Below, piece by piece: positions 3,999 to 31,637 of a DNA stretch of 64,000 nucleotides; within the stretch, counting starts at the first letter, position 1; the number at the start of each line of letters is the position of its first letter. Location: assembly GCA_030753015.1 (NCBI GenBank), contig JASMDC010000009.1, positions 37,758-101,757 of the forward strand, read 5' to 3'. The translations under genes and the position numbers were made by a program. The notes below the pieces were generated by a model. The model saw only the letters and a program-made list of their open reading frames with translations. It was not told where the DNA came from and did no database searches. Source of the stretch: Candidatus Undinarchaeales archaeon (GTDB taxonomy: Archaea; SpSt-1190; JASMDC01).

Positions 3999-4064
3999 CG
4001 CTGACACTGGTGATACGACCCTCCTATGAGTGGTCCCATTTTGGTTCTGTATCGTCCCAGTTTT

Positions 4065-12419: not shown

Positions 12420-14171
12420 CTAGTGCCCCCGGGGGAACCATACGTCACCGATGACATGATGACCCAGGTATCGTCGGACGATGTTGTCAGGACCGAACCG
12501 ACGGACGATGCAGCGTATGAGGTCGCGGGTCGTACGTGTGGCCCTGGCATGCTCCATTACCAGGAACGAGCATCGGTTACCGGGTGAGATCGAGACATCG
12601 CGGCCGAGCACCTTACCGCCGCTCACGGTGGCCATGTGTAGCGCTTCCCTGTCGGTGAGCCTGCAGCCCCTGGCAAGGAGCTCCATCTCGCGGAACAGGT
12701 TGGGAGAGGACACGAAGCTGTTGTCGGTCCCAAGCCCGACCTGGAGCCCGGCGTCGAGGAGGTCCCTCACGGGTGGGAGCCTATCGGTGAGGGTGAGGTT
12801 GGAGCGTGGGCACACGATGACGGACATCACTGCGTTGGCCGCGCACGTAGCGTGCTTCGGCAGCGCGTGCGTCATATGAACAGCGATGTCGACCCCGAGC
12901 TCAAGGGCATTATCCAGCTGCTCGGGTCGGGGGGCCTCGAGCACGTGGGCGGCCACGGGTTTGTGAGCGCGGTGAGCGGCCGACACCATGTCTGCGTCCA
13001 AGCTGCTCGGGCTCGCGGCTCCCAGACCGTCCGCCTCCATGACGACCGATGCGAGCTCCTCCGGATTGTCGGCACGCCCCAGAAGGATCATATCAAGCGG
13101 TGCATAGGCAATCGCTTCTCGGGCGAGACGGACACCTACCAGCCCGCCCTCGCGGAAGTCCGATGCGACACCGATACCCATCCGGACCATCTCCCATGTG
13201 GTCTGGCGCATGGCGCTTGCAAGCATCCCTGGCGGGGTTTGTGCGAGCAGGCGGTGCTTGAGCCCATTCGGCGGCGCCACGAGCTCCTGGAGCGGGACGC
13301 TCTGGCCGATGTCTAGGAAGGCGCTGTCCCCCAGATGGACGTGGGCGTTGACCATGGACGGGATGATGATGCGGTTCCGCCGGTCACCGGCCACGGGACC
13401 CTCCTCGATCGATTTGATGACACCATCGCGAACCACAACGGCACCCTCCACGGGCTCAAGCTCGGGCCCTACGAGGGCGACACCCTCCTCGATAAGGTCC
13501 TGGGCAGGGACCTGTGCACAGAGGCCCTCGACCATGGATGAGAACCATGCCTCACCCTTGGCAAAAGTGGCATGACGTGGATCCCCCATGACGCCTGTGT
13601 TGGACCGGGCGAGGTTCAGACCCCCGTGCGGGCGAGGGCCCGTGGTAAATGTGTCCCACTGGGGCGGTGCTGGTTCCACGACCACGGTGCTCGGGTCCGA
13701 GCCGAAAAGGAAGGCGGCCAGTGATCCCTCGAACTCACCGGCGTGGCAGCACCCGCCCGGCGAGGAGTCCCGCATCGAGTTCACCAGGTCGCGGTCCACT
13801 AGGTGCCATGTGTGGAGGACCGTCACCCCTTGAAGCCCCTCCACTGCCTGTTTGTTCCCCCCGTGTCCGTTGATGACGAATATCTGGCCTTCCAGTGAGC
13901 CCACAAGGTCCTGAATATAGGTGTGAAGCGACTCCGCCGATACTGAGACAGTCCCCGGCCTGGCACTATGCTCGTGGCTGTCGCCCACTCCCACCAATGG
14001 AAGGACCAGCGCTCCTGTGCGGTCGGCTACAGCCGCCACTAGGCGCTGGGCCACCATCGCGTCCGTGCCCAAGGGGAGATCGGGGCCATGGCCCTCCAGC
14101 GAACCCACAGGGACCAGGATAGGGCGGACCACGTATCCAGCGCGGGGTGATGCCTCCTCCGAGGCGTACAT
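12420..14171 (-). CDS. Creatininase-family domain fused to an amidohydrolase
   Basis: 583 residues with two enzymes in one chain. Residues ~15-215 match the creatininase family: PVGSLEGHGPDLPLGTD with metal-ligand Glu, His and Asp, and FVINGHGGNKQ. That family includes creatinine amidohydrolase and the archaeal formamide hydrolase ArfB of flavin/F420 synthesis. Residues ~230-560 are an amidohydrolase of the cytosine-deaminase/SsnA type: MVNAHVHLGDSA, VAAHVLEAP, HMTHALPKHA and GLGTDNSFVSSPN. Both active-site sets look intact. A bifunctional hydrolase acting on successive amide or amidine bonds of one heterocycle is a reasonable inference; the substrate is not known. A TATA-like TTTATAATGG on the minus strand lies near 14200, at the expected distance from the ATG at 14171. 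Confidence 0.85.
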   Translation of the reverse strand: MYASEEASPRAGYVVRPILVPVGSLEGHGPDLPLGTDAMVAQRLVAAVADRTGALVLPLVGVGDSHEHSARPGTVSVSAESLHTYIQDLVGSLEGQIFVINGHGGNKQAVEGLQGVTVLHTWHLVDRDLVNSMRDSSPGGCCHAGEFEGSLAAFLFGSDPSTVVVEPAPPQWDTFTTGPRPHGGLNLARSNTGVMGDPRHATFAKGEAWFSSMVEGLCAQVPAQDLIEEGVALVGPELEPVEGAVVVRDGVIKSIEEGPVAGDRRNRIIIPSMVNAHVHLGDSAFLDIGQSVPLQELVAPPNGLKHRLLAQTPPGMLASAMRQTTWEMVRMGIGVASDFREGGLVGVRLAREAIAYAPLDMILLGRADNPEELASVVMEADGLGAASPSSLDADMVSAAHRAHKPVAAHVLEAPRPEQLDNALELGVDIAVHMTHALPKHATCAANAVMSVIVCPRSNLTLTDRLPPVRDLLDAGLQVGLGTDNSFVSSPNLFREMELLARGCRLTDREALHMATVSGGKVLGRDVSISPGNRCSFLVMEHARATRTTRDLIRCIVRRFGPDNIVRRYLGHHVIGDVWFPRGH

Positions 14172-16557: not shown

Positions 16558-19500
16558 CTACCACACGGTTATCTCGACGCTGACGAGCTCCTCCTCGTCC
16601 TCGTTGACCTCCATGATGGCGAAACGCTTGACCAGCTCCACGTCCCGCCCCAGGGCCGGCAGGCGCACGTAGTAGTCGAGGATCTCGAGCAGCTGGATGC
16701 GGCGGATGATCACCGGGATCTCCAGTGCCTTGACCTTGCCCCCGATCGTGCACCGGTCATCGTTCTGGTCCCGCACGTAGATCTCCAGCTTGGACGTATG
16801 GGTGCTCTGGAGCCCCGGTGGGTTGAGGATGATGTTGAAGGTGACCTCCTGGAGCGCATCGAGCGTGGGTGGTGGGACGGGGTAGAGCTGTGCCCAGTGT
16901 CGAAGGGACGGGCCGGTCTTGATCGTCAGGCTCGTGAGCCCGCCGAGGTTCTTGATGCGGAGGTCGACAGAGCAGGGCGTGGCATCGATGGATACGCACT
17001 CCAGCACCGATGGATGGTACTCGAGCTTCGACTTGCCCTTCATGCGCACGAGCACCGTATTGTTAGCATGCTTCACACCGGACGCGACCGAGGCGCGCAG
17101 GGACCATGCCTTCCGCGAGTCCTCACAGCGGTCGGTGTCAGTGCCCTTGTTGTACAGCGGCTTGCAGTTCTTGTCCTTGGTGAGGTTGAAGTGACCCGTG
17201 GCGTTGGTGTTCACCTTGCAGTTGTTGGAGGACTGTACGATGTTCCCGAACTCGTCGAGCACCGAGATCTTGACCTCACTGAGCGGGAAGTTGCTCTCGC
17301 CCCAGATCTCCATGGCGGCCTGCCCGTCAATGACCTCGCCGTTCTTATGCGAAGTGATGAGGACGCGGGGCGTCTCCCCCACCGTGAAGGTGTGGAGCGC
17401 GAGGTAGGACTGGCCGTTGGGCATGACCTTGCCCTCGTTGGGATCACCTTCGGGGAACACGTCCTCGGCCCAAAGCTCGACGTGGTAGTCTCCGTAGGCC
17501 AGGGTAGTATTGATACCGAAGGAGCGCTTGAACGTACGTCCGACCTTGACGATGTTGTCCCTGTCGTACACGACAACGGGATCGTTGCCCTTGGCCTTGA
17601 GTCCGATGGAGCCCTTGCCCGGGACGACCATGGTGACGTCGGCGCCCGACCGGGTGAAGGTTATCCCCGTCCCGGAGCTATTGGCCACCGTGAGCTTGGA
17701 ATCATCACCGTTCTTGACGAACGTTACGATGTCGAGGACCTTCTCGTCGTCGTTCACCTCGAGCTTCCAGTCGTTTACGACTGTCGTGGCACCGAGGGAG
17801 ATGTCCATGAGGATATCGTCCCCGCTGCGCGTGAGGGTGGCCTTGTTCCCTGCGTGGGTTAGAGTGACGACGTTCCCGTTGACCGTGATGGGCCCCACGC
17901 CCACCCAGTCCCTTTGCTCATGCCAGTACCGCAGATACTCACGCAGCCCCCACTGGTCGTCGCTGTTGATCTCGCCCAGCTTGCCCCAACCGAAGAGAAC
18001 CCGCCGCTGGATCCATTCGACCCCGCGAAAGATGACGAGGTACCTGCGAAGGTCGAGCTCGTCCTCACCGGGCACCTCCGACCACCTGAACAGCTCAGAA
18101 CCCACGTTCAGGGAGTAGCGGATGGTATCGTTGTCCAAGTTGTCGCACCTCCAAGTGAGGTCAGGGTTGAGCTCGGTGGTGACGTTGGGAGCGATGTTAT
18201 AGGGTGTGCCGGGCGCATCGTTGGCGCACTTGAAGATGGCGTCGGTGACCGTCGAGATGCCGCCGTGCGGGTCCTCGCTGTAGAGCCGGACGAAGTAGTC
18301 CGTGTCGAAGGTGAGGGTGGACGTGATGTCATAGGATGTGCCGGTGGTCTTCTTGTCGTTGACGACGTCCGATCCGTATAGAGCGGATCCGACGAAGACG
18401 TGGTACGTGAGGGCGTCACCGTCATAGTCGAAACCCTTGGTCCATTCGATGGTGGTCGAGGTGTCATGGGTGAGCTCCGGCTTCAGGTTCGTGGGAGCGT
18501 GAGGATTGGCGTTCACGCACCCATCGATCATCACGGCATCGATGCTGCTCCAAGCCTGGTCGGCCTCGTCGCTCACGGCCTTCAGATCGATGCGGACCTT
18601 ATCGACCTTGGACTGCGTGCGCGATATGCTGGGGCTCCAGTACGGGCGCTGCTTGGTGTTGTCCTTGCAGTAATCGACGTGGTCCTTGTCCGAGAACCGT
18701 TCCCACTTGTCGTCCCCCCAGGCAGCGTCCCACACCTTGTTGGCGCTGTCGGCATACCACTTGGGATCGGTGCTATCTATGGGATGGACGGTGATGTTCG
18801 AGATGCGACCCGGCTCGTAGTCGAGCACGAGCACGATGCGGTCCAGGTACACGGGGATGGTGTAGGTGAGCTCGAGCCAATCATGGTCCTTGCGGGTCGA
18901 GGGGCGCCACTCCATGTTCGCCTTGGGATCGCAGTTTGACGGATCTGGTGGGGAGGAATCCCATTCAAGTGGTTCCCCTGAGGCCGCCGACGCCTTGTGG
19001 CTGGCCTTGTTGGTGGACGACGTGGCGCTCGCTGCCCACTGATCCGTGGTCGCCGAGCACCAAGGGACACCCTCGTACATGCAGGTGTGATCGAAGGTAA
19101 GGCCTTTTGCGTTGCGATTCGCACCGGCGTTCTTACAGTCACCCGTCTCGACCTGGTATCGTAACCGCTGGGTCTTCTCAGGCAGGTCCCACGTCTCCTT
19201 GAGGAACACCTGACCGGTCCCCGAGAGGCTCGCCCACTCGCCCGTGTGCTTGCCAAGTGTGCTCCCTCCACCGTCGTACGCGAACAGTACGAGGCGAGCA
19301 TCGTCATCAGCGCAGTCCTTGTCCGCGGGCTTTACGGTGATACCGTTGACCCACAGCTGGGCGATGGCCTGGTAGCCCTCGATGGTGGAGGGTACAGCCA
19401 CGTCCTGATGGAAGAGGTCCGCGTATATCCCGTCGGCCTTCTGCTGGACGCACTTGGAGCCATCATAGCACACAGAACCGCTCGCGGTCTGGACGACGGT

Positions 19501-19629
19501 GCCAGCGGCGCTCCAGTTGTCAGTTCCCTTCTCGAAGTCGGCGTTCTTGACGTCGTTGTTGTCGTCGCACTCGTCACCGGCCGACATAGTCAGCAGGAGC
19601 ATGAGGACGAGGACCGCGGCCCGGACCAT
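16558..19629 (-). CDS. Large secreted beta-sandwich / fibronectin III-like protein
   Basis: 1023 residues from the ATG at 19629; a GTG at 19671, four bases after the upstream stop and preceded by GAGG, would add 14 basic residues. Residues 1-17 are a signal peptide (MVRAAVLVLMLLLTMSA). A carbohydrate-binding-like beta domain follows (NADFEKGTDNWSAAGTV), then a discoidin-like segment (LELTYTIPVYLDRIVLVLDY). Two fibronectin III-like domains start near PHAPTNLKPELTHDTS and DAPGTPYNIAPNVTTELNP, and further beta domains fill the rest. No C-terminal membrane anchor is seen, so it probably stays at the surface by binding a partner. It is the last gene of a minus-strand run with the 2823-residue protein and is probably co-translated with it. 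A structural or adhesive role is inferred. Confidence 0.85.
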   Translation of the reverse strand: MVRAAVLVLMLLLTMSAGDECDDNNDVKNADFEKGTDNWSAAGTVVQTASGSVCYDGSKCVQQKADGIYADLFHQDVAVPSTIEGYQAIAQLWVNGITVKPADKDCADDDARLVLFAYDGGGSTLGKHTGEWASLSGTGQVFLKETWDLPEKTQRLRYQVETGDCKNAGANRNAKGLTFDHTCMYEGVPWCSATTDQWAASATSSTNKASHKASAASGEPLEWDSSPPDPSNCDPKANMEWRPSTRKDHDWLELTYTIPVYLDRIVLVLDYEPGRISNITVHPIDSTDPKWYADSANKVWDAAWGDDKWERFSDKDHVDYCKDNTKQRPYWSPSISRTQSKVDKVRIDLKAVSDEADQAWSSIDAVMIDGCVNANPHAPTNLKPELTHDTSTTIEWTKGFDYDGDALTYHVFVGSALYGSDVVNDKKTTGTSYDITSTLTFDTDYFVRLYSEDPHGGISTVTDAIFKCANDAPGTPYNIAPNVTTELNPDLTWRCDNLDNDTIRYSLNVGSELFRWSEVPGEDELDLRRYLVIFRGVEWIQRRVLFGWGKLGEINSDDQWGLREYLRYWHEQRDWVGVGPITVNGNVVTLTHAGNKATLTRSGDDILMDISLGATTVVNDWKLEVNDDEKVLDIVTFVKNGDDSKLTVANSSGTGITFTRSGADVTMVVPGKGSIGLKAKGNDPVVVYDRDNIVKVGRTFKRSFGINTTLAYGDYHVELWAEDVFPEGDPNEGKVMPNGQSYLALHTFTVGETPRVLITSHKNGEVIDGQAAMEIWGESNFPLSEVKISVLDEFGNIVQSSNNCKVNTNATGHFNLTKDKNCKPLYNKGTDTDRCEDSRKAWSLRASVASGVKHANNTVLVRMKGKSKLEYHPSVLECVSIDATPCSVDLRIKNLGGLTSLTIKTGPSLRHWAQLYPVPPPTLDALQEVTFNIILNPPGLQSTHTSKLEIYVRDQNDDRCTIGGKVKALEIPVIIRRIQLLEILDYYVRLPALGRDVELVKRFAIMEVNEDEEELVSVEITVW

Positions 19630-19675
19630 CTCCTTGGCGTGTCGCCCGTTCCTATTTCCTCGTCGTCCCACGGGC

Positions 19676-22600
19676 TCAACCCTCACGTCCGTTCGCGGTG
19701 ACGGTGCGCCGGCGCGTCCTCCGTGCCAGGAACAGACCTGCCAGGGCGAGCAGGAGCGCGACATCCACCGCGCCCACGCCGGGAGCTGTTGCCATGAAGG
19801 CACTACCGCTGGCGTACACGACACGCACGTAGAACTTCTTCTCGTTGAGTCGCTCAAGCGAGTCCGCGTCCACGACGTAGATCTCGATGAGACCTGCAGA
19901 GGTGAGCTTGTAGGGATTGATCTCCACCGGTATGGTCTTCGACTCGCCGGGGAAGAGGGTGAACGCCTCTTCCTTGAAGGTGGACCACATCTCCTCCTTG
20001 TGGAGCTTGAGCACGAGGTTCATAGGCTGGGTCCAGTAGTTCGTGACGTGGGCTCCGAGGAGGAACGTCTCACCTACGAAGGTCGACATGGTGTTCTCGA
20101 CGACATCGGCCTTCCCGGACATCTTACGCACCTCCAGCTTGACGAACTTCTCGAAGGAGAACACCGTCTGGTAGTGGGCGTCGGTGTAGAGCATGCAGAT
20201 GCCCGTCTCAGGTGCTGGCGTGCCCTCATACTCGCACTGGTCCGGCGCTGCCTCCTGGGTGCAGAAGTGGCACATGGGCAGGGTGGCGGTGATTGTCATC
20301 ACCGGTCGCGGTTCGTTGGTGACCAGACCGGAGACGTCGCACAGGAACACGCCGGAGCCCTGATGAGTACAGGTCTTCTCGATGTTCTTGTAGGAGAGGG
20401 TTGCCTGGCACATATTGCACCGCTCCGGCGCGCCGCCGTGTTGCTGGAGGTAGGATGACACGACCACGTGGAAGGCGATCTTGACGTCCTTCTTACCGCC
20501 GGGCAGCGTCTGCTTGCGCACCTTGATGTCCTTGACCGAGATGGCGGGGATGGGGCCGTCCCTGGGGTGGCACAGCTCGCGCTCGTAGCCGAGAGTTGAG
20601 GATAGCACCTGACACCCGGTCTTGGAACAGGTGTAGTATCCACCGTCGATGTAGTCGATCTGACCCTCGGTCTCGTTGAAGAGGGCTTTCTCGTGGTAGT
20701 AGCAGTTGAGGGTCGTGACATTCACGGTACCGGGGTACGGGCAGTTGCCTTTGAACACGTCATCGGACCAGTCGAATCCGTCGTAGGCGTCATCCCCGTC
20801 GTCCTTGCAGATGTCCCCGTACTTCTTCTCGTCCTTGTCGAAGGCGTGGTAGCATGTGTGGGTGGCGTTGTCCAGGCACCAGCCCTCGGTGGCGACGTCG
20901 ATGCTGATTGGCTTCTTGTTCTTCAGCTCCTGGTTGAGGCGGAAGCGCGAGTTGTCTGCGGCGTTCGCCTTGTCGAGCTCGAGCCAGGTGCACCGCTGGC
21001 GGTGGCTGGCGTCCTGCGGTTCCACGGGCGCCTGGTGGCAGCCCTGGGAGTCGCAGTCGGTGGCCTTGGACCAGTCAGATCCGGTCTCCGAGTCCTTATC
21101 GTCCCAGAAGTAGCAGGTGAGCTGGTAGTTCTGCTTGTTGCTGACGAGGTTGTAGATATGGCCGACGATCTCCACGTCACCCGCGCCGTCGCAGTCCCTG
21201 GTCTCCTGGCTGTCCACACCGAAGAAGTCGTTGTAGTTCGTCGAATCGATACCATTGTAGAGCTTGTTGTCCACTTGGCTCGTCTTGTTGACACCCTTCT
21301 CGCAGTAGTGGCAGTAGTCACGGCTGTCCGAGTAGTAGTAGAAGTTATCGTTATCCCCGTCGTCACCACAGCACGGTGCCTCGGCGTTTGTACCCGCTTC
21401 GTCGTGGAGGCCGCCGTCGCCGATGTCGGGGTGGTCGTCGGGCTCGAACCAGGCGTGTTTGTTGTACTTGTCCACATCATAGCTGCGGGCACGCCAGGAC
21501 AGGCAGTGGCACGCATTGGCGCTGACGTCGCCGCCCTTCTTGCCGCCGGTCTCTGTCGAGTCGTAGCAGGTACCGTTGGACACGCAGTCCATCTCCCGCG
21601 GGCAGCAGGCGAGGTAGTAGTTGTACGTCTTACCGCTGGCGAAGTTGGGCGCGTCCGAATCCTGCCATGAGCGCACACCTATGTTGTCGGCCGGCACGCG
21701 GTGGAGCGAGCCTGTGCCCGTCCCCTCCGAGCGCAGGGACCACTCGCTGCTGTCGTCACCGCAACATGCGCCCTTTGAGTCCGAACCGCCGTTGTTGACC
21801 GAGGTGCCGTACTTGACGTCCCACCAGAGGCCTTGGTCCTTGTTCTGGCTGCCGGTCGAGGTGTCGGAGAAGCATCGGGTATCGCAGTACCTCCAGGCGA
21901 TGGACGCATCATCGGCCTTGCTCTGGCCGGCCACATCCCGGTTATTGTTGTTGAGGTTGTCGTAGTCGACGTAATACATCTGAGAGTATGCCTTCTCGTT
22001 GGAGTTGGGGAGTCCCGTCGGATCGTCGCTCGTCGGCGTGTCGTCGAAGTAGCGGTTGCGGTTGCTCTTGCCGGAGTAGCTCGAACCGCCCATGGCACGG
22101 TTCTCGCCGTAGTACTGCCACAGCATCTTGTACTGATAGCTCCCCTCCTGGGTGCACATCTCGAGCGGGTCGGTGGTGCGCTTGATTGGATCGTGGTTGG
22201 TGGGTGTCGTCGTGATGGTGTTCACTGATATCTTGTTGTCCGAGGTGCCATCGTTGAGCACGTAGGTGAAGGTGTAGCTGCACGTCTCCTTGCCGTACTC
22301 GCTCGTGCCGATGCGCCAGGTTGTGGGACCTCCACCCTCGTTGACGCAGGTCATGGCAATGTCCTTACGGTACTCGATCCCGTCTGGCTTCTTGAACGAG
22401 TAGGTGCCGTCCGTGTCGTAGCCGCAGTAGTAGTAGCTCTGGCATGTACCGGTGCGGCAGCCTTTGCGGTCGCCGGTCTTCTGGTCGTCGCAGGAGTTGG
22501 GGCAGTTGGAGATCTTGCTGGCCCCGATTTCGACGGCGTTGTTGTCACAGCAGTAGGTGTTCACGGGCGTCTTGCCGGGAATCGAATACTGGAACTTGAC

Positions 22601-25600
22601 ATAACCGTAGTACCAGCTGCTGACGGTGCAGGCTGTGAACTCCTTCGAACAGTGGGCATAACACCAGTCGGAGTCGGACGTGCCACTGGCGCGGGAGTAG
22701 AAGTCACACTCGATCTGTTTCATGTTGTCGTTATACCTGCATGTCGTCTTCTTGTTCTTGTACGTGGCACCGCACTTCAACTCCCCGCAGTTCAGGGATA
22801 CCTTGGGGCTGCTGGCGTCGCCGTTGTAGAGCTGCTCGTCCTGATCCCAGAGGAAGAGGAAGGGGGCGACGGAGGCTATATCGACCCACTCGCCAGCCCG
22901 GCAGAACTCCTTCGGATTGTCGTTGTCCACGTTCGCGAGGTACTCGTGGTGGTAGCACTTGTTATTGTACACACAGTCCGTGGCCGTCGGACAGCACGCG
23001 ATGTCGTCCGCGGACGCGTCGCATGCGTTGTCGGTCTCGGTCTCGTCGCTGTGACACTTCAGGTAGAACTCGTTGGCATCGTCGCCGCAGCACGTATCAG
23101 CGCTCGCTGTCGATCCACCGTCGTTAAGGGCGATCTTGTACCACGATCCGTCGTTCTTCTTGGTCTTCGTGCCTCCGCCGAGGTTCCAGCCGACGCCCTG
23201 GTCGTTCGCATGCACCGTTGTGTCGTCGAAACAGGTGGCCGAGCAGTAGCGGTCGGCGTCAACTGTCGCGGAGGCGTAGGTGCCGGGATCGCCCGGTGGT
23301 GCCTTGTTGACATTGCCGTGGTTATCGAAGTTGACCTTGTAGATGGTCGTCCAGTCGTACTCCTCAACAGTTGTCTTTGAGCTCGCACCGCCACACTCGC
23401 CATTGAAGTAGAACTTGGATTTAGCTTCGTACGTGCCCTCGCGCTCGCAGTGAGCTCGCTCGAGGTCCTTCCACTCCATCTTGCATTTATCGGAAAGAAT
23501 CTCATTGTTGCCCTGGCAGCTGGACTTGGGGCAGGTCAACACCTTCCATCCGCCAGAGAGGTCGACCTTCGAGTCCTTGTGGCGTATCTTGTAGTACCCC
23601 GGCGAGCACCAGTAAGCGTTGATAGGCCCTTGCCACTCCGGGGTAACGATAGGTAGGTCGTCGCAGGTCTTCCCATTGAAGATAAACTCCGACTTCACAG
23701 TGTACCGTCCCGCGATCTTGCACGAACCATAGCTCCACGTGGGACAGTCATTGGTAGTGATCTTCATGACCCTGTTCCCGCTACCGTCCTCCTGGCAGAA
23801 CTTGTTCGCACCCTTACCGGGGCAGTCGAGGATTCCGGAGTTGGCCTCCTCGGTGCCGACACCGTTGTAGATGCGGTGGCGGATCTGGACCGGAGGTTTG
23901 GACGCCCAACATCTGAAGATCTTGTTGTTCTTGAACGTCTCCGCCGTGGTGCGGAAGGCCGTCTGTTTGCAGTTCTTGCCGTTGTAGGTGAAGTCGACCT
24001 GGGCCCGGTACCAACCGTCCTCGGTGCACGTGTCGGGGAAGGAGAACGTCTCACACGTCTCTACGCGTGCCTCGCCGCTGCACGAGGTCAGGCAGCTTGC
24101 GGTCTTGTCGAACACGACCTTGTTGCTGGGCGAGTAGATACGGATGCGGGCATTGTCCCGGCGCAGCTTCCACACGCCGTTCTCGCACAATTCATTATAT
24201 CCGTCGCCGTCGGCGTCCAGGTCGTACCCGTTGTCGAAGCACTTCCCGTTGCTGACACAGTCGTAGCGTGACGAACAGCATGCCTTGTTGTCGCTGTGGC
24301 GACAGGCCGATGGGGTCGCTGACTTCTCATCATCGCTGGTCTCGCACGTGCGGTACCACTCGTTGTTGTCATCACCGCAGCATGAAGAGGAAGCGGTCTC
24401 CCCACCAAGGTTCCAGGCGATACCGTTGTCGTGGGCGCCCGTGGTCTTGTCGCCGAAACAGGTGAGCGAACAGAAGATGCCGCTATGGGCGTCCCAGTTC
24501 ACGTTGTACTTGACTTCGTCGATGTCCTGGTACGTGGCCGCCAGCGCCCTCCCGTCCCAGTTCTTTCCCGAATAGGACATCCGGCTCACGAAGTGCATGT
24601 CCCCCTCGTAGTCGCAGCGTTTGTTCATGCTACTATGGGTGATATAGGGCGAGGGGTCCCAGGTGTACGAGCACGGGATCACGAGCGATTTGTGCGTGGG
24701 ATCGTGGGAGAACTGGTCGGCTGTGTCGGTACAGGACATGTCCTTCCAGTTGAGGAGCGTCGTACCACCGACATAGATCTTGATCTTGGCAGTGGTGTCG
24801 AGAGCGCACGAGAACACCTTCATCTTGCTGTCCTCGACCCAGCTGCTCGTGTGGGGGAGGGCTGCTCCGTTGACGCACGAGTTGCCCTTGTGGGTGACCT
24901 TGGCGCGGACGGTGTAGTACCCGTTGGTCTGCGAGCAGATCGCCTTCTCCGGGACGGTGTACGTCTCGCAGTCCGACATGTAGGTCCCCCCGTCGCACGA
25001 CGTGTCGCACTTCTTCTTGGGGCTGGTGTGAGCGAGATTTCCGTTGGGATGGTAGACGTAGTAGTAGACCTCGTCATCGATGTCACAGAAGTAGAGGTTC
25101 GTCTTGCTCAGTCTCGATTTCACGTTCGATGTGGGGCGGTTCTGGCATTCGGGCCGGTTATGCAGTATGTCCACCTCGGCCTGGTAGTAGCCTGGGATCT
25201 TGCACTCGCTAAAGTCCATCGTGCACTCGTGGTATGTCTGCGCCTCATTGCCAGTGCCCGAGGGGCAGCTGGTGGCACAAGTGACGTCGTAGGACTTGAT
25301 CTGGCCAGCGGTGTAATGGAAGATGCGGTACTTGGCCTTCTCGGGCAGATCCTGCCATACGCCGTTGACGCACTTCTCCTCGGCGTTATCGCCATCGATG
25401 TCACCGATGTGGTTGTTGTTGTAGCAGTTACCGAAAGCCACACAGTCGTACTGGGCGTTGCAGCATGCACTGTTGTCACCCTTACAGGCGTTCTTTACCA
25501 GCTCGTCGGTCTCGCACTTGCGGTACCATTCACTGCCATCGTCACCGCAACAGGTGGTCGATGCGGTCTCGCCTCCGATGCTCCAGGCGATGCCGAAGTC

Positions 25601-28147
25601 GTGGGCACCGGTCGTCTTGTCATTGAAACAAGTGGGCGCAGAGCAGTAGGTACCGGAGTGGCCGTCCCAGTTGACGTTGTACGCCGTGATTTGCAGGTCC
25701 TGTGAGGCGTCCTCGAGGGCCGTGCCGTCCCAGTTCTTGCCGCCGTAGTGGACACGGACCTTTATCTTGTGGTCGCCCTCACGGTCGCACTGGTGCTTGT
25801 TCCCACTGACGGTGACATAGTGGCCGGCAGTGGGCGACCATCCGGAGTAGCTGCACGCGACGACTGCGCTGTTGTCAGTGGGATCGTGTGAGAACTGGTT
25901 AGCAGGACAGTCGATCCACGCACCGTTGACATAGTAATGGCCGCCGACCCAGTACCACATCTGCATGGTCGTGTCAAGGCCGCAGGAGAACACCTTCTTC
26001 TTGCTGTCATCTACCCAGCTGCTCGTGAATCGGAGGGCGTTACCATCGGTCACGCACGAGCTGCCTGAGTGGGTGACCTTGGCACGGACACTGTAGAAAC
26101 CGTTCTGCGTGCAGAGGCCGGCCTCGTCAATGGTGTAGCTTTCGCAGTTGGACATGTACGTGCCGCCGTCGCAGGAGATCGTGCAGCTCTTCTCGGCGCT
26201 GGTATGGGCGGCGGCCCCGTTGGGGTGGTAGACGTAGTAGGTCACCTTGTCGCCGATGTCCTTCCACGCTCCGCTATCACAAATCTCTTGGTCGTTATCG
26301 GTGTCGCTGTCCCCGGTCCAGCCATGGGCATAGCATTTGTTGTGGGCGACACAATCGGTCTGGTGGGAGCAGCAAGCACTGTTGTCGCCATCGCATGACT
26401 TCGGGTTCACCTTCTCGTCGGTCTCGCACTTGCGGTACCATTCGCTGCCATCGTCGCCGCAGCAGGACGAAGCGGCCTTTTCCCCGCCGATGTTCCAGGC
26501 GACGCCGAAGTCGTGGTTGCCGGTGGTCTTGTCGCTGAAGCAGGTGGGTGCCGAGCAGTAGACGCCCCCCTCGCCGTCCCAGTTGACATTGAACTTCTTC
26601 TCGGTCAACGTCTCCTTGCGGTGCGAGGCCGGCGAGTGCAGGCTCGTACCGTCCCAGTTCTTCCCCGAGAACGAGAACTCCACCTTCGTGTAGTAATCAC
26701 CCTCGATGCGACAGTAGCGCTTCTGGCTGCTCACGGTCACGAACTGGCCCGCGGGTGGCGTGTAACCGGCGTAGGTGCATTCGTGGAGCCCCGCATCGTC
26801 TTTACCCGGATTGGTAGCGTAGGCTTTGGGGCAGTCCATCGCCTGGCCGTTGACGAAATAGGTGCCGCCCACATAGTACCAGACCTTGCCGGTGGCCGAT
26901 AAGGAGCAGGAGAACAGCTTTTGGTTCGCTTCGTTCACCCAGCTTGTGCCGATATTGAGGGGCTTGCCGTCCGAACAGGAGTTGCCCTTGTGATCGATGC
27001 GGGTGTTCATCGAGTAGTAGCCGCCGTCCTTTGTGCACAGTGCAGTTCTGTCAATGGTGGCCGCGGGGCAGTCGGAGATATACTCCTTCGCAGAGTTGCA
27101 ATTAGCGGGACAGTCAATGTCCTTCTTCCATACATACTGGCTGCTGGACGTGGATGGCGAGTTGACCCCGGGCTTGTATATGTAATACGTGCCCTTGTCA
27201 GTGATTTCGCATGTGAACAGGTCGTGCCTGCCGATATTGCTCTTCCCACCGATGCTTCCACCGGTCTTGCCATCGCACTCTAAATCCCCATGGGTGACGG
27301 AGGCCTCAGCCTGGTACTGACCGGGGATCTTGCATCCCGCTTTGGAGTAGGTGTAGGTGCAGGCCGACTCACGCTGACAGTTCGCGGAGGTGCATGGGCA
27401 TGTTGTCGTGCACTCGATATTGCTCTTGGTAGTGACGAGCCCCCCCGTCTTGTGATAGATCTTGACCTCGCCGAACTCGGGGCACTCATAGAGCTTCTTT
27501 GTGAAGGAGCTGGTCGCTCCCTGGGAGGTCTTGCCATCGCATTCGTTAGCGCCGTGCTTCACTTTCACCTTGGCCTCGACCCATCCTGGAGCGTTGCACG
27601 AGTCGTAGGTATGGGAGCACTCGGCGTAGCGCTGGGAATTGGCTCCCGTACCGGATGGGCACGAAGCCGTGCATTCAACGTTGACGGTCTTCATATGGCC
27701 CCCGAGGCCGTTGTAGTACTTGATCTCGGCAATATCATTACAGGTGTAGAGGTCGAAGTACGAGGACGTGGCCGAACCGCCGCCGGTGGTCTTGCCATCG
27801 CACTCCTTGTTCCCGTAGCTGAATGTGGCTTTCGCCTTCACCGGGCCGGGGGTCGTACATGTCCGGGAGTAGCTGACGGTGCACTCGCAGACCTGCTGTG
27901 CATTGGCACCTGTGCCGCCGGGGCAGGAGCATGAGCAGCCACCGGTGTTCTTGGTATCGATGTGGTTGTTCTGCCAGTCGTAGATCTTGATCGTGGCACT
28001 CTCTGAGATGGCCGTCTGGACCGCTAGAAGCACGAGAACGCCTGTGAGGAGCAGGAGGGTGGCGAGGGAGGCAGCGGCGCGCGTAGAGCGAGAACTAACT
28101 CTAGAAAAGCCTCCTCGCTCTATTGATGACTGAATAGGATGAACCAA
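19676..28147 (-). CDS. Giant Cys-rich repeat surface protein (2823 residues)
   Basis: Starts at a TTG at 28147 with GGGAG five bases upstream; no ATG precedes the signal peptide. Residues ~25-50 are the signal peptide (SLATLLLLTGVLVLLAVQTA). Two repeat types follow. Type 1 is a ~85-residue Cys-rich beta module starting near IKIYDWQNN and repeated at IKYYNGLGG and VKIYHKTGG, each with ECDGKT. Type 2 is a longer module with YCSAPTCF.DKTTG, CCGDDGSEWYRKCETDE, CC...DCV...CY and an acidic D.D.DN loop. CCGDD cores occur near residues 562, 866, 1256, 1687, 2128 and 2260, the last ones degenerate. The C-terminus has a stalk, then APGVGA, a hydrophobic helix and ARRTRRR, resembling a PGF-CTERM sorting signal. 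Many disulfides and possible calcium loops suggest a rigid extracellular filament or adhesin. I cannot assign the family. Confidence 0.88.
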   Translation of the reverse strand: MVHPIQSSIERGGFSRVSSRSTRAAASLATLLLLTGVLVLLAVQTAISESATIKIYDWQNNHIDTKNTGGCSCSCPGGTGANAQQVCECTVSYSRTCTTPGPVKAKATFSYGNKECDGKTTGGGSATSSYFDLYTCNDIAEIKYYNGLGGHMKTVNVECTASCPSGTGANSQRYAECSHTYDSCNAPGWVEAKVKVKHGANECDGKTSQGATSSFTKKLYECPEFGEVKIYHKTGGLVTTKSNIECTTTCPCTSANCQRESACTYTYSKAGCKIPGQYQAEASVTHGDLECDGKTGGSIGGKSNIGRHDLFTCEITDKGTYYIYKPGVNSPSTSSSQYVWKKDIDCPANCNSAKEYISDCPAATIDRTALCTKDGGYYSMNTRIDHKGNSCSDGKPLNIGTSWVNEANQKLFSCSLSATGKVWYYVGGTYFVNGQAMDCPKAYATNPGKDDAGLHECTYAGYTPPAGQFVTVSSQKRYCRIEGDYYTKVEFSFSGKNWDGTSLHSPASHRKETLTEKKFNVNWDGEGGVYCSAPTCFSDKTTGNHDFGVAWNIGGEKAASSCCGDDGSEWYRKCETDEKVNPKSCDGDNSACCSHQTDCVAHNKCYAHGWTGDSDTDNDQEICDSGAWKDIGDKVTYYVYHPNGAAAHTSAEKSCTISCDGGTYMSNCESYTIDEAGLCTQNGFYSVRAKVTHSGSSCVTDGNALRFTSSWVDDSKKKVFSCGLDTTMQMWYWVGGHYYVNGAWIDCPANQFSHDPTDNSAVVACSYSGWSPTAGHYVTVSGNKHQCDREGDHKIKVRVHYGGKNWDGTALEDASQDLQITAYNVNWDGHSGTYCSAPTCFNDKTTGAHDFGIAWSIGGETASTTCCGDDGSEWYRKCETDELVKNACKGDNSACCNAQYDCVAFGNCYNNNHIGDIDGDNAEEKCVNGVWQDLPEKAKYRIFHYTAGQIKSYDVTCATSCPSGTGNEAQTYHECTMDFSECKIPGYYQAEVDILHNRPECQNRPTSNVKSRLSKTNLYFCDIDDEVYYYVYHPNGNLAHTSPKKKCDTSCDGGTYMSDCETYTVPEKAICSQTNGYYTVRAKVTHKGNSCVNGAALPHTSSWVEDSKMKVFSCALDTTAKIKIYVGGTTLLNWKDMSCTDTADQFSHDPTHKSLVIPCSYTWDPSPYITHSSMNKRCDYEGDMHFVSRMSYSGKNWDGRALAATYQDIDEVKYNVNWDAHSGIFCSLTCFGDKTTGAHDNGIAWNLGGETASSSCCGDDNNEWYRTCETSDDEKSATPSACRHSDNKACCSSRYDCVSNGKCFDNGYDLDADGDGYNELCENGVWKLRRDNARIRIYSPSNKVVFDKTASCLTSCSGEARVETCETFSFPDTCTEDGWYRAQVDFTYNGKNCKQTAFRTTAETFKNNKIFRCWASKPPVQIRHRIYNGVGTEEANSGILDCPGKGANKFCQEDGSGNRVMKITTNDCPTWSYGSCKIAGRYTVKSEFIFNGKTCDDLPIVTPEWQGPINAYWCSPGYYKIRHKDSKVDLSGGWKVLTCPKSSCQGNNEILSDKCKMEWKDLERAHCEREGTYEAKSKFYFNGECGGASSKTTVEEYDWTTIYKVNFDNHGNVNKAPPGDPGTYASATVDADRYCSATCFDDTTVHANDQGVGWNLGGGTKTKKNDGSWYKIALNDGGSTASADTCCGDDANEFYLKCHSDETETDNACDASADDIACCPTATDCVYNNKCYHHEYLANVDNDNPKEFCRAGEWVDIASVAPFLFLWDQDEQLYNGDASSPKVSLNCGELKCGATYKNKKTTCRYNDNMKQIECDFYSRASGTSDSDWCYAHCSKEFTACTVSSWYYGYVKFQYSIPGKTPVNTYCCDNNAVEIGASKISNCPNSCDDQKTGDRKGCRTGTCQSYYYCGYDTDGTYSFKKPDGIEYRKDIAMTCVNEGGGPTTWRIGTSEYGKETCSYTFTYVLNDGTSDNKISVNTITTTPTNHDPIKRTTDPLEMCTQEGSYQYKMLWQYYGENRAMGGSSYSGKSNRNRYFDDTPTSDDPTGLPNSNEKAYSQMYYVDYDNLNNNNRDVAGQSKADDASIAWRYCDTRCFSDTSTGSQNKDQGLWWDVKYGTSVNNGGSDSKGACCGDDSSEWSLRSEGTGTGSLHRVPADNIGVRSWQDSDAPNFASGKTYNYYLACCPREMDCVSNGTCYDSTETGGKKGGDVSANACHCLSWRARSYDVDKYNKHAWFEPDDHPDIGDGGLHDEAGTNAEAPCCGDDGDNDNFYYYSDSRDYCHYCEKGVNKTSQVDNKLYNGIDSTNYNDFFGVDSQETRDCDGAGDVEIVGHIYNLVSNKQNYQLTCYFWDDKDSETGSDWSKATDCDSQGCHQAPVEPQDASHRQRCTWLELDKANAADNSRFRLNQELKNKKPISIDVATEGWCLDNATHTCYHAFDKDEKKYGDICKDDGDDAYDGFDWSDDVFKGNCPYPGTVNVTTLNCYYHEKALFNETEGQIDYIDGGYYTCSKTGCQVLSSTLGYERELCHPRDGPIPAISVKDIKVRKQTLPGGKKDVKIAFHVVVSSYLQQHGGAPERCNMCQATLSYKNIEKTCTHQGSGVFLCDVSGLVTNEPRPVMTITATLPMCHFCTQEAAPDQCEYEGTPAPETGICMLYTDAHYQTVFSFEKFVKLEVRKMSGKADVVENTMSTFVGETFLLGAHVTNYWTQPMNLVLKLHKEEMWSTFKEEAFTLFPGESKTIPVEINPYKLTSAGLIEIYVVDADSLERLNEKKFYVRVVYASGSAFMATAPGVGAVDVALLLALAGLFLARRTRRRTVTANGREG

Positions 28148-28263
28148 GTCATCTCCCTTCCAATGCCTCTTCTTTCCTGTCGTTCCTCACTCTATAACGT
28201 CTGTTATGACCACCTCCGATGGTAAATAACAGCTACTACTGACTATACTATACTAGTCCGCGA

Positions 28264-28275
28264 TGCGATATAAAC
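28264..28275 (-). promoter_or_regulatory. TATA box upstream of the giant surface protein gene
   Basis: GGTTTATATCGC on the minus strand. It predicts transcription from about 28243 and a leader of roughly 95 bases to the TTG at 28147. The 132-base gap also holds the AT-rich TATACTATACTA run at 28244-28255. It otherwise shows no gene. Confidence 0.5.
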
Positions 28276-28279
28276 CTTT

Positions 28280-29191
28280 TTACCCGGGCACGATGCGGAC
28301 AGTGAGCATCTTACCCTCGACGATCACGTCCATGCGCTTGAGGGAGGACACACCCGAGCGGGGGAGGGCGATGCGGAGCAGGTAGGTCCCGGGAGAGATG
28401 CAGGTCGCGGGCTCGAAGGTCAGCCTCCCGTCGAGATCGGTGGAGGTGACCGTCTTCGCAAGCGGCTCGGCATCCAGTCGAGGGAGGATCGAAAGCTCGA
28501 CCTCGGTGTTAGTCAGGCGTAGTGCCGGCGCCTCGGTGAATCCCTCCACGAAGTACGTACCGTGTAGCGTGGCGGAGAGCACGATGCGGGTGCAGCACAC
28601 GTCCTCGTGCTCCTCGTCATCATCGGTGTCGATCCATGCGCCGTTGTCCGCACCTGTGCACTCCGTCTTGCACGAACCGCCCACGCAGTGGAAGGACGGG
28701 GAGCAGTCCGAGCCCGTCCGACACGTACGCCGACATTCCCCGGCATCGCACCCGAACGGCGAACAGTCCTGGACGGCCACCGCCGCACCAGCACGGCACC
28801 GCGAGCCATCATCATCGGTGGCACATGAGTACCCGACAGCGTAGCGCTCGTGCCCATGGCAGAGCGTGTAGTCCAAGGAGCGGCAGTCCACCCACGTTCC
28901 CGCGCAGGTGTTCGCTTGTGCCACGAGCTCGTACAACCAGGGACCCATGCACATGTCGTGGTAGTCGTACCGTATGCAGAAATCCTGGTAGCTACCCTGG
29001 TGGTCGGTGCAGAATCCGCCCTGGAGGAGGTCGAATCCGTCGGAGTCCTCGCTGTCGGTGCGACACTGGTCAGCGATCTCCTCGAAGGCGGCGAAGGCGT
29101 TCCCTCCCGAGAACAACCCGCTTGTCGGTGCACCGAGGGCGAGGGCCAAGCACAGGAGGGCGACGGCCGCGACCAGGTACATTCGCGGCAT
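28280..29191 (-). CDS. Secreted Cys-rich protein with C-terminal beta domain
   Basis: 303 residues from the ATG at 29191, chosen because TATTTATAG-like sequence near 29221 predicts transcription from about 29195; the frame extends 19 residues further but into the promoter. Residues 1-20 are a signal peptide (MPRMYLVAAVALLCLALALG). A Cys-dense middle follows (CRTDSEDSD, CAGTWVDCRSLDY, CRRTCRTGSDCSPSFHCVGGSCKTEC), which looks like stacked small disulfide domains. The last ~100 residues form a beta-rich carboxypeptidase-regulatory/Ig-like domain (LTNTEVELSILPRL, GTYLLRIALPRSG). It lies immediately upstream of the giant Cys-rich gene and downstream of the pilin-like genes, so a shared extracellular structure is likely. 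Confidence 0.82.
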   Translation of the reverse strand: MPRMYLVAAVALLCLALALGAPTSGLFSGGNAFAAFEEIADQCRTDSEDSDGFDLLQGGFCTDHQGSYQDFCIRYDYHDMCMGPWLYELVAQANTCAGTWVDCRSLDYTLCHGHERYAVGYSCATDDDGSRCRAGAAVAVQDCSPFGCDAGECRRTCRTGSDCSPSFHCVGGSCKTECTGADNGAWIDTDDDEEHEDVCCTRIVLSATLHGTYFVEGFTEAPALRLTNTEVELSILPRLDAEPLAKTVTSTDLDGRLTFEPATCISPGTYLLRIALPRSGVSSLKRMDVIVEGKMLTVRIVPG

Positions 29192-29244
29192 GATACTATG
29201 TACGTGGCGCTTGTGGGCTATAAATGTGCCCCGTGGACGGGGCC

Positions 29245-29826
29245 TCAATCATCCGGCTCGGATACATCGAGGTAGACGTAGAACGTGCGCGTCTGGAAGG
29301 CCTTCGTCTCTCCGAGCGCTGTCCAGTTCACGTCCGCATAGAGCCGTTCGAGATGAAACTGGAATGTCATCTGTACGTCGTCCAAGGCATCGTCGCTGCC
29401 CTTCTCCTTCACGATGATCACCCGGGAGGAGTTGAGGGGGATCTCTAGGTGGGCTTTCACCACGGTGTCCTCCACATCGTACGTCGAGGTGAGGTGCACA
29501 GGGTACCGGTAGTTCGTCCCATCGGCCTTCCAGTCCGAGACGTACCGCACCTGGCCTTCCCAGTCTACTGCCTCCGTCTTCAGGGAGGCCTGGAAGAGGA
29601 TGTCAAGTGCTCGCATGTTACGCTCGCGGGAGAAGTCGTCGGAGAGCGTGTCCACCGTGTCCACGGCCGATAGGAGGTTCTCGAACTCGTTGAGCTGGCC
29701 TATGGAGATATCGCCCATGGGCACATGCCGCTGGGTGATGTACATACCGATCATGTGGAGGGACATGATCACGAGCACGCTTGAGACGATGAAGAACTGG
29801 CCTTTGCGGTGTGTAGTGAGCATCAT
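29245..29826 (-). CDS. Pilin-like membrane-anchored protein (KGQ-FF motif)
   Basis: 193 residues. The N-terminus is short and basic, followed by KGQFFIVSSVLVIMSLHMIG. This fits the archaeal prepilin pattern in which a class III signal peptidase cuts between Gly and Gln and the hydrophobic helix packs in a filament core. The rest is a beta-rich extracellular domain ending FQTRTFYVYLDVSEPDD. The start overlaps the stop of the 187-residue gene upstream by one base (29826). It shares the motif and the C-terminal YVYLD/YIYFN pattern with the protein at 30386-31084, so the two are likely distant paralogues. Pilus subunit or pilus-like anchor is inferred; no pilus ATPase or prepilin peptidase is in the window. 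Confidence 0.78.
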   Translation of the reverse strand: MMLTTHRKGQFFIVSSVLVIMSLHMIGMYITQRHVPMGDISIGQLNEFENLLSAVDTVDTLSDDFSRERNMRALDILFQASLKTEAVDWEGQVRYVSDWKADGTNYRYPVHLTSTYDVEDTVVKAHLEIPLNSSRVIIVKEKGSDDALDDVQMTFQFHLERLYADVNWTALGETKAFQTRTFYVYLDVSEPDD

Positions 29827-30389
29827 CAGTGTCGACCTCTCAAGTGGAGCGCATCGGTAGAGAACTCCGCATAGAAATTATAGCCGTTCTGTTCGATGGG
29901 GAAGGTCTGGACGTGATGGGTGGAGGCGTTGAGCGTGATGGTCATGCCGTCAGAGGGGGTCCCGTAATCAAGGAGGGTGATGTTCCCGCTGTTCAGGACC
30001 GTGCGTAGCTGATTGAAGCTCGGTGTCTCGACGAGGATGTGGAACCTGGTCGTGGACGGGTCCCGCAGGATCTGGACGGGGGCGTGGACGGCGCCCGTGA
30101 TCTTCCCCCAGCTCTGGACGGTGCCCTTGACACGGAGACACTCGCCCGCTGGCATGCTCGCATCGAAGGACTGCCACGACTCGACCTTGATGTGTATAAG
30201 CTGGTTCGGCTTCACGGGAATAACCCACTCAGATGGATCTCCCAGAGAGTACCACGAGAGTTCTTCCCCGGTGTCCAGGTAAGTGACATTGACGTACTTG
30301 AGCTTGTAGAATCCCTGGTTCGCTCCGCCGCCGCTGTTGAGCAGGAGCACCAGCGCTGCCAGGACCACAAGGGCGAGAGCGGATCTCAT
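29826..30389 (-). CDS. Exported beta-rich protein between two pilin-like genes
   Basis: 187 residues. Residues 1-18 are hydrophobic (MRSALALVVLAALVLLLN), then a Gly-rich GGGAN and a beta-rich domain (VNVTYLDTGEELSWYS, IHIKVESWQSF, MTITLNASTHHVQTFP). It may be a cleaved secreted protein or stay anchored. It overlaps the upstream pilin-like gene by four bases (ATGA at 30386-30389) and the downstream one by one base, so all three are translationally coupled. Such coupling suggests a fixed-ratio complex. Family not recognised. Confidence 0.78.
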   Translation of the reverse strand: MRSALALVVLAALVLLLNSGGGANQGFYKLKYVNVTYLDTGEELSWYSLGDPSEWVIPVKPNQLIHIKVESWQSFDASMPAGECLRVKGTVQSWGKITGAVHAPVQILRDPSTTRFHILVETPSFNQLRTVLNSGNITLLDYGTPSDGMTITLNASTHHVQTFPIEQNGYNFYAEFSTDALHLRGRH

Positions 30390-31084
30390 AGCCCCTCACC
30401 TCTCGTCGTCGTGTTGAAGTAGATATAGAAGCGCTGGGGCTGGAACGGCTTGAGCTGGGAGACTGTCCATGTGAAGTTGACCTTCCATGAGCTCTCGGGG
30501 ACGCACTCAGCATGAGGCAACATGCTGTTCTCGGCAACGATACCCGATTTGAGGGTGCAGATGACCTTGTACTCGACAGTGTCACCCTGGGGGACGTCCG
30601 TACCCATCTCCACCATCCATATTTCGGTCGCGAAGTCGGTCGTCAGTGGGAGGGGGATCACCTCATAGACCTGCACCTCGTCCATCGGATAGTTTGCAAC
30701 GACCTCCACTGGGATGCGGTAGGTGAGAGTATTAGTCGCGGGGACCAGGTTCCAGGAGGTGGCCGTGGTATAGGTGATCTCCCCGTTCCAGGAGAACCCG
30801 AGCTCGTTCGCCGTACGTTGCATGAAGAACACATAATCGTTGAGGTTCTGTGTCATGATGTCCGAGCACACGCTGTCCCTGGCCGACGCCTGGGTGCACG
30901 ATGCATCGACGATCTTGGATCCCTGCTGACGGCTGTTCTGGAAGAAGAGGAGGGGCATCAGGGAGAAGTCGTCGCGATTGAGGGGGCGGTGCTCCCTGAT
31001 CATCGACTCCATGACCAGGAGGGCCATGAGGATCGTGATGCAGGAGATGACGTAGAACTGGCCGCGCTCCGACCGGACCGACAT
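30386..31084 (-). CDS. Pilin-like membrane-anchored protein (RGQ-FY motif)
   Basis: 232 residues from the ATG at 31084, two bases after GGAGGT; an ATG at 31102, close to where a TTTAATAC box would start transcription, is the alternative. The N-terminus MSVRSERGQFYVISCITILM matches the basic-GQ-hydrophobic layout of the 29245 gene and of archaeal prepilins. The extracellular part is beta-rich with several Cys (SCTQASARDSVCSD, ICTLKSGIVAENS, HAECVPESS) and ends in RFYIYFNTTTRG. It begins the tightly overlapping trio 30386-29245. A role as major or minor subunit of a surface filament is inferred from the N-terminal motif only. Confidence 0.78.
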   Translation of the reverse strand: MSVRSERGQFYVISCITILMALLVMESMIREHRPLNRDDFSLMPLLFFQNSRQQGSKIVDASCTQASARDSVCSDIMTQNLNDYVFFMQRTANELGFSWNGEITYTTATSWNLVPATNTLTYRIPVEVVANYPMDEVQVYEVIPLPLTTDFATEIWMVEMGTDVPQGDTVEYKVICTLKSGIVAENSMLPHAECVPESSWKVNFTWTVSQLKPFQPQRFYIYFNTTTRGEGL

Positions 31085-31151
31085 ACACCTCCCACTACCC
31101 ATTGGAGATATCTAGGTCGTGGAGGTATTAAATCCTTTCGCGTGCGGGACC

Positions 31152-31637
31152 TCAAACGGACTCGGTGCGTGTGCACACGCTCGACTCGGTACGCTCGATC
31201 ATGGGTGTCACGGCGAGGTCGATGATATCGTTGTAATCGGCGAACTGTGTTCCCGAGATAGCGAAGATCCGGGTGCTCCCCCCCGCCCATCCTTCGACCG
31301 TCTGTTCGATGAGGAAATCACATTTGTTCCCTGTCACGACCAGGGTCTCGTTAGCGATCCATGATCCCGCGTTGTACTCGAACATAGCTCTCTCGAGCAC
31401 CCGGTGCGGTATCCGGTTCTGCCCTTTGTTGGTGATGGCAAGACATACTGCGCCGGGAAGGGTTCCGCACCTGGCGGTGACGTTGTCCGGGCAGGCATAG
31501 ACCACCCTGCAGCCTAACCTGTAACGAATGTACGCCGAATCACCTGCGGAGGAAGCGTAGACGTGGAGCACGGCCACTATCAGACCTGTGAACACGGCGA
31601 TGGCCACGACCACCATTGCAAGCGTTCGATCGGCCAT
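31152..31637 (-). CDS. Small membrane-anchored extracellular protein
   Basis: 161 residues. The N-terminal helix MVVVAIAVFTGLIVAVLHVY starts almost at residue 8, so the protein has a short inside tail and an outside domain, or is processed as a pilin. The domain has Cys residues in RLGCRVVYACPDN, ARCGTL, GAVCLAI, GNKCDFL and SSVCTRT. GGAGGG lies four bases before the ATG, and a TTTTTAAGG box near 31670 gives transcription from about 31644. It is the first gene of the minus-strand run that continues to the pilin-like genes, although a separate TATA-like box at 31126-31133 precedes the next gene. Confidence 0.76.
   Translation of the reverse strand: MADRTLAMVVVAIAVFTGLIVAVLHVYASSAGDSAYIRYRLGCRVVYACPDNVTARCGTLPGAVCLAITNKGQNRIPHRVLERAMFEYNAGSWIANETLVVTGNKCDFLIEQTVEGWAGGSTRIFAISGTQFADYNDIIDLAVTPMIERTESSVCTRTESV

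Follow-up and report, generated by a model that had tools for sequence, protein, structure and literature searches.

The 64,000-nucleotide stretch of DNA analyzed here (the window), positions 37,758 to 101,757 of contig JASMDC010000009.1 in the Candidatus Undinarchaeales archaeon assembly GCA_030753015.1, carries at 16558–31637 a series of genes for proteins predicted to be exported or membrane-anchored, among them two pilin-like proteins and a cysteine-rich giant of 2823 residues. A first-pass annotation had placed seven consecutive minus-strand genes here, and all seven open reading frames (ORFs) were confirmed at the coordinates it gave, with the start codons of two (P0003 and P0001) corrected. 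The first is P0007 (31152–31637, 161 residues), an orphan predicted to cross the membrane with a single helix at its N-terminus and to expose a short domain outside the cell. It is followed by a trio in which the orphan P0005 (29826–30389, 187 residues), which has an export-type N-terminus, lies between the pilin-like P0006 (30386–31102, 238 residues) and P0004 (29245–29826, 193 residues); overlaps of one to four bases had been noted among these genes, and P0005 does overlap P0006 by 4 nt and P0004 by 1 nt. Next come P0003, listed as 28280–29248 (322 residues) but more likely 28280–29191, given the TTTATA site found 33 nt ahead of the ATG at 29191, and the giant itself, P0002 (19676–28147), a predicted surface protein with 168 cysteines. 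P0003 and the giant are, as described earlier, cysteine-rich; both have export-type N-termini, and neither has a Pfam, NCBIfam or PHROG family. The last gene, P0001, encodes a multi-domain beta protein with an export-type N-terminus, also an orphan; as listed (16558–19857, 1099 residues) it overlaps the giant by 182 nt, and its likely start is the GTG at 19671, 4 nt past the stop codon of the giant, which would give a protein of 1037 residues (16558–19671).

Scans with Pfam, NCBIfam and PHROG models identified no family above cut-off for any of the seven proteins. P0001 had weak matches to fn3, CBM4_9 and DUF7402, every one below the cut-off, and nothing convincing among PDB sequences. As far as these curated libraries go, the first-pass view that each part lacks a recognized family is correct; two of the parts nevertheless fall into families with a wide distribution among archaea.

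P0006 and P0004 are paralogs (pairwise E-value 5e-10), and the N-termini of both are prepilin-like, with basic residues, the residues G-Q-F and then a hydrophobic helix (RGQFYVIS in P0006 and KGQFFIVSS in P0004). A first profile made from P0006 and P0004 only was weak and matched mainly N-termini; its weak foreign matches led to loci in which a KGQFF-type gene ends a type IV pilus (T4P) operon. A six-protein profile of the family, here called GQF, was built from T4P-operon proteins without the window sequences, and when searched against 3,357 ORFs from the examined stretches of the source genome it matched only P0006 (E-value 4e-10) and P0004 (3e-8), the next-best ORF scoring 2.2. Single-sequence searches with P0006 and P0004 likewise had GQF-family proteins as their foreign matches. 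A much stronger profile of 11 members found the family in 52 of 297 archaeal genomes, and 21 of 41 GQF loci had a T4P ATPase or TadC gene on the same strand, many of them ~3.2 kb away; Pfam confirmed T2SSE and/or T2SSF in seven loci (L084, L085, L086, L089, L091, L093, and L169). The GQF profile had nothing convincing among PDB sequences. AlphaFold2 modeling of P0006 with P0004 reached a mean confidence (pLDDT) of 47, the low-confidence P0006 model consisting of an N-terminal helix followed by beta strands; as Foldseek gave nothing at E ≤ 0.001 with this model, it was discarded. The pilin-like identity of P0006 and P0004 is well supported.

In small-genome archaea a GQF gene often stands last in a T4P operon (L084–L087, L089, L091, L093, and L169); the two proteins are homologous to the products of these genes, and four of these operons (L086, L087, L091, and L169) also hold cysteine-rich exported proteins. 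Unlike in those operons, the window pair is detached from ATPase and TadC genes and exists as two diverged copies flanking an orphan exported gene. We claim P0006 and P0004 as accessory members of the GQF family and not as members of a core T4P operon, because no ATPase or TadC match was found in the window, 20 of the 41 GQF loci elsewhere likewise have no ATPase or TadC match on the same strand, and detached pilin loci have been described: some pilin loci have neither an ATPase nor a TadC of their own, according to the survey of archaeal T4P loci by Makarova, Koonin and Albers (2016, PMC4858521). The ATPases of the source genome sit on contigs other than that of the window. Those on contigs C55 and C63 are closest (57% and 54% identity, respectively) to the ATPase of genome G004, which is encoded in an operon closed by a GQF gene; the stretches examined around the C55 and C63 ATPases showed no gene of this family.

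The giant has an export-type N-terminus followed by tandem ~90-residue, cysteine-rich, beta-type units and six copies of a motif, CCGDD. Eight near-full-length copies of the ~90-residue unit were recovered with E-values of 7e-27 to 2e-34 by a profile that had been seeded from those eight copies themselves; unseeded units were found in the giant down to 1e-6 and in its paralogs down to 9e-29. Four contiguous units occupy residues 49–417 (26897–28003, minus strand, as are all giant features given here), and residues 313–1331 (24155–27211) contain three super-repeats of ~310 residues, each combining beta-type units with a CCGDD module and sharing 50–58% identity with the first copy. The internal repetition of the giant is far above chance. 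An AlphaFold2 model of the 310-residue repeat had a pLDDT of 42.5 and was discarded, Foldseek having given nothing at E ≤ 0.001. The protein ends in a tail (19703–19786) made up of APGVGAVD, a hydrophobic helix and RRTRRR, an arrangement that resembles an archaeosortase sorting signal. As with known archaeosortase substrates (PGF-CTERM/PEF-CTERM tails), this PGVG–helix–basic tail is found in a genome that encodes an archaeosortase (a TIGR04178 match on contig C23, E-value 1.4e-19, above cut-off); unlike them, the tail matches no curated sorting-signal model. The size of the giant, its domains without a known family and the weak carbohydrate-binding-like matches of P0001 might suggest that it is secreted as an enzyme or effector and serves neither as adhesin nor as stalk, but searches of Pfam, NCBIfam and PHROGs identified no catalytic domain in it, and with its repeated cysteine-rich units and anchor-like C-terminus we find this scarcely credible.

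The whole architecture of the giant was matched only in its own genome, on contigs C32, C86, and C26 (L009, L011, and L012). C32 has 1,012 residues of giant-type N-terminal part cut by the contig end, C86 is spanned entirely by a 2,542-residue piece open at both ends, and C26 has a 1,315-residue piece that includes the C-terminus. Because the parts are complementary in order and the C32 piece breaks off inside a repeat, the three may belong to one gene of at least 4,869 residues broken at repeats. The C-terminal module of the window giant (residues 2467–2823, 19679–20749) recurs as a separate 410-residue protein on contig C73 (L010, 10245–11477; 51% identity, E-value 3e-114), whose gene adjoins an IS110-type transposase gene, with a pilin-like ORF bearing a class-III signal ~4 kb off. 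P0003 in turn matches the C-terminus of the C26 giant paralog (26% identity, E-value 3e-28), so that both modules, that of P0003 and the C-terminal anchor, exist as stand-alone genes as well as within a giant. Since the P0003 domain is fused to a giant paralog in the same genome, P0003 most likely works with the giant, which is an argument from domain fusion and not a proof. A T2SSE-type ATPase gene (C26:55565–57865) lies ~11–12 kb from the C-terminus of the C26 paralog.

The CCGDD-module cysteine-rich proteins are a family defined in this analysis, for which we found no database entry; the giant fits it by the module and the conserved cysteine pattern. A CCGDD profile identified 22 named loci, mostly in Woesearchaeota, Aenigmatarchaeota and other DPANN groups, with one each in Altiarchaeales, a genome labeled Euryarchaeota and a metagenome-assembled genome labeled Deltaproteobacteria. 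At E ≤ 1e-5 the module was detected in 12 of 297 archaeal genomes, among them G001 and G007, which share the class of the source genome; in the phylum to which G220 belongs, 20 of 156 genomes had it. No match to it was confirmed in viral contigs, and nothing convincing was found among PDB sequences. Among the 47 CCGDD proteins with a stop codon inside their locus, 12 end in a hydrophobic helix, seven of these with a PG-type motif before the helix; several have FPGL- or PGI-type tails that are archaeosortase-substrate-like. The Deltaproteobacteria-labeled genome has two tandem CCGDD proteins (121 and 146 cysteines; L028, 4256–11479), and the module may occur in bacteria too.

We found several loci in which T4P genes and cysteine-rich proteins are contiguous and co-oriented. 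In L038/L230 a CCGDD protein gene overlaps a pilin-like gene by 4 nt, followed by a second pilin-like gene and an ATPase; in L178 a CCGDD protein is followed by a pilin cluster; and L042/L220 have the order TadC-TadC-pilin-archaeosortase-giant (archaeosortase gene at L042 7881–8354). In L155 a GQF gene lies 46 nt ahead of that for an 86-cysteine protein, and L170 has a single ORF that combines a GQF N-terminus with a cysteine-rich, CCGDD-containing remainder. Within the class of the source genome, G007 encodes a CCGDD giant and, ~7.6 kb away on the same contig and strand, a T4P operon whose last gene specifies a GQFYVIS protein (L169, L096). An ATPase gene overlaps that of a CCGDD giant (>3,700 residues) by 4 nt in L031/L223, and in L225, from another genome, the two adjoin in the same order. 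The idea that this ATPase type marks giant loci was dropped, since the type is common in archaea and was not beside a CCGDD gene in the 20 other loci examined. The adjoining ATPases in L031 and L225, together with the regular tandem repeats and their conserved cysteines, could also be taken to mean that the giant makes up the main filament, in the form of a disulfide-linked sheath or a hook-like structure that a pseudopilus of the pilin-like proteins exports or erects, as in type II secretion. We regard this as very unlikely: a single long chain with an anchor-like tail is more in keeping with a stalk or adhesin bound to the cell, the analysis found no channel gene, and the structure models lend the idea no support.

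Another alternative is that the genes are independent neighbors: the GQF pair would serve a T4P system encoded at another site, a separate surface-layer (S-layer)-like or stalk-like coat would be built from the giant, P0001 and P0003, and the adjacency of the two units would be an incidental clustering of surface genes. The predicted promoters bear on this. Against a background of 0.30 TATA-like hexamers per kb per strand in the window, minus-strand sites were found 38 nt upstream of P0007 (31670–31675), 30 nt upstream of P0006 (31127–31132), 33 nt upstream of P0003 (29219–29224) and 127 nt upstream of the giant (28269–28274), and the promoter-pattern scan detected no TATA-like hexamer upstream of P0005, P0004 or P0001. 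As a sequence pattern, these positions suggest four transcription units ([P0007], [P0006-P0005-P0004], [P0003] and [giant-P0001]) and not a single operon, so the ~15-kb locus of the first-pass annotation appears to be split. The same alternative is favored by the CCGDD giants that mostly lack neighboring pilin genes, by the start of the C32 paralog beside a family-B DNA polymerase gene, and by the presence of another cysteine-rich ORF, with FG-GAP repeats, at 1–4007 of the window; it is countered by the contiguous, co-oriented pairs of T4P and CCGDD or cysteine-rich genes in several Aenigmatarchaeota families, by the G007 operon and giant on one contig, and by the combined ORF of L170. Independent neighbors are in our view a serious possibility, a little short of an even chance.

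A linkage of the pilin-like proteins with the giant has to be weighed against a number of observations, all of which count against it. Outside the class of the window, the contiguous cases come from one phylum, Aenigmatarchaeota (some by family label). No T4P gene was found in 20 of 24 Aenigmatarchaeota CCGDD stretches or in 19 of the 22 named CCGDD loci, and T4P genes turned up in 4 of the 24 CCGDD stretches as against 1 of the 16 control stretches, on its own a weak difference; the argument for a pairing therefore rests on contiguity and orientation. The ATPase type of L031 and L225 is common (at E ≤ 1e-50, 167 of the 394 archaeal genomes have a relative of the C26 ATPase) and was beside no CCGDD gene in 20 other loci. 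In the window itself no T4P ATPase or TadC was detected, the predicted promoters set the pilin trio apart from P0003 and the giant, and the sequence searches turned up no convincing relative of P0001, P0005 or P0007. To these may be added the unmatched sorting signal of the giant, the poor structure models with fold searches that returned no significant match, and the C32 paralog, which starts next to a polymerase gene and not a pilin trio. The first-pass annotation had named homologs of the giant regularly found without the trio as evidence against its proposal, and this is mostly what the counts and the C32 neighborhood revealed. Its idea of a filament and adhesin system fares better in that P0006 and P0004 are homologous to pilin-like proteins of T4P operons and related pairings recur in a minority of the other archaea with small genomes, and worse in that the exact order of trio plus giant was found, among the loci examined, in the window only. 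One physical appendage made from the whole locus is not supported.

On this evidence we give about an even chance to the reading that the locus combines two things: accessory components of a T4P-type system that act outside the cell, and a giant adhesin or stalk that is rich in disulfides and anchored in the membrane. The homology to GQF proteins, the linkage of that family to T4P operons, the repeat architecture and the domain shared by P0003 and a giant paralog are computational results; the steps of export, cleavage, anchoring, disulfide formation, physical assembly and adhesion are ones we infer from the sequences. P0006 and P0004 would be diverged paralogous minor pilins, their prepilin-like N-termini cleaved before the Gln residue, and would depend on a T4P platform whose genes lie in another part of the genome; C63 and C55 are candidates for this platform because their ATPases are of the type found together with GQF genes in the operons of relatives. 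P0005 would be an exported partner translated together with them. The giant would be secreted, fold as a string of CCGDD modules and beta units stabilized by disulfides, and be held by its PGVG-helix-basic tail, possibly via the archaeosortase of the genome, with P0003 associated with it and P0001 acting as an additional surface- or carbohydrate-binding exported protein. The role of such an assembly would probably be attachment to surfaces or partner cells. More broadly, we speculate that some archaeal lineages have a pilus-coupled giant adhesin. Disulfide-rich CCGDD giants, kept on the cell by archaeosortase-like tails, would there be displayed by, or assembled together with, GQF-type minor pilins and T4P platforms; such an attachment apparatus would form a class of its own, and the window locus would be a detached, duplicated version of it. 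We think this generalization rather unlikely at present.

Compared with known systems, the locus looks like a variation on known archaeal pilus and adhesin neighborhoods and not a wholly new machine, because minor pilins have already been described in T4P loci alongside large exported proteins and cysteine-containing S-layer-like proteins. In the survey cited above (PMC4858521), T4P loci of Thermoproteales are reported to hold minor pilins, large exported proteins and many cysteine-rich components, as well as arCOG05471, which is S-layer-like, has conserved cysteines and carries one membrane helix at its C-terminus. The window resembles the loci in that account in having minor-pilin-type genes near large exported cysteine-containing proteins, and it differs from the Thermoproteales loci presented there in the 2823 residues, 168 cysteines and tandem modules of its giant, the comparison with arCOG05471 being one of described layout only. 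The SPEARE proteins of nanohaloarchaea, for which host contact has been proposed, are much larger giant surface proteins (8,880–9,409 residues) with Ig-like domains and a VirB4/TraG-like ATPase domain (PMC10266531); like them, the window giant is a predicted giant cell-surface protein of DPANN archaea, and unlike them, it has no match to a VirB4/TraG-like ATPase or Ig-like domain in Pfam or NCBIfam. A limited literature search on cysteine-rich proteins together with pilins in DPANN archaea found no paper. The attachment of small-genome archaea to partner cells is poorly known, and the GQF profile and CCGDD module, both absent from the curated libraries searched, offer two search handles with which to look for accessory genes of T4P and for surface giants; with the contiguous loci and the single combined ORF in hand, the display or carriage of giant cysteine-rich proteins by T4P becomes directly testable in chosen genomes.

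Some further observations concern the window and its source genome. The cysteine-rich FG-GAP-repeat ORF at the window edge (1–4007, minus strand) has 70 cysteines and an export-type N-terminus. In a single minus-strand ORF at 12420–14171, the N-terminal part matches a creatininase/MftE-type model, and what follows it matches a chlorohydrolase-type amidohydrolase model. The source genome comprises 3.85 Mb in 117 contigs (98.9% complete, 5% contamination), and nine relatives of the same class have only 0.6–1.1 Mb; the assembly represents either an unusually large lineage or a partly mixed one.

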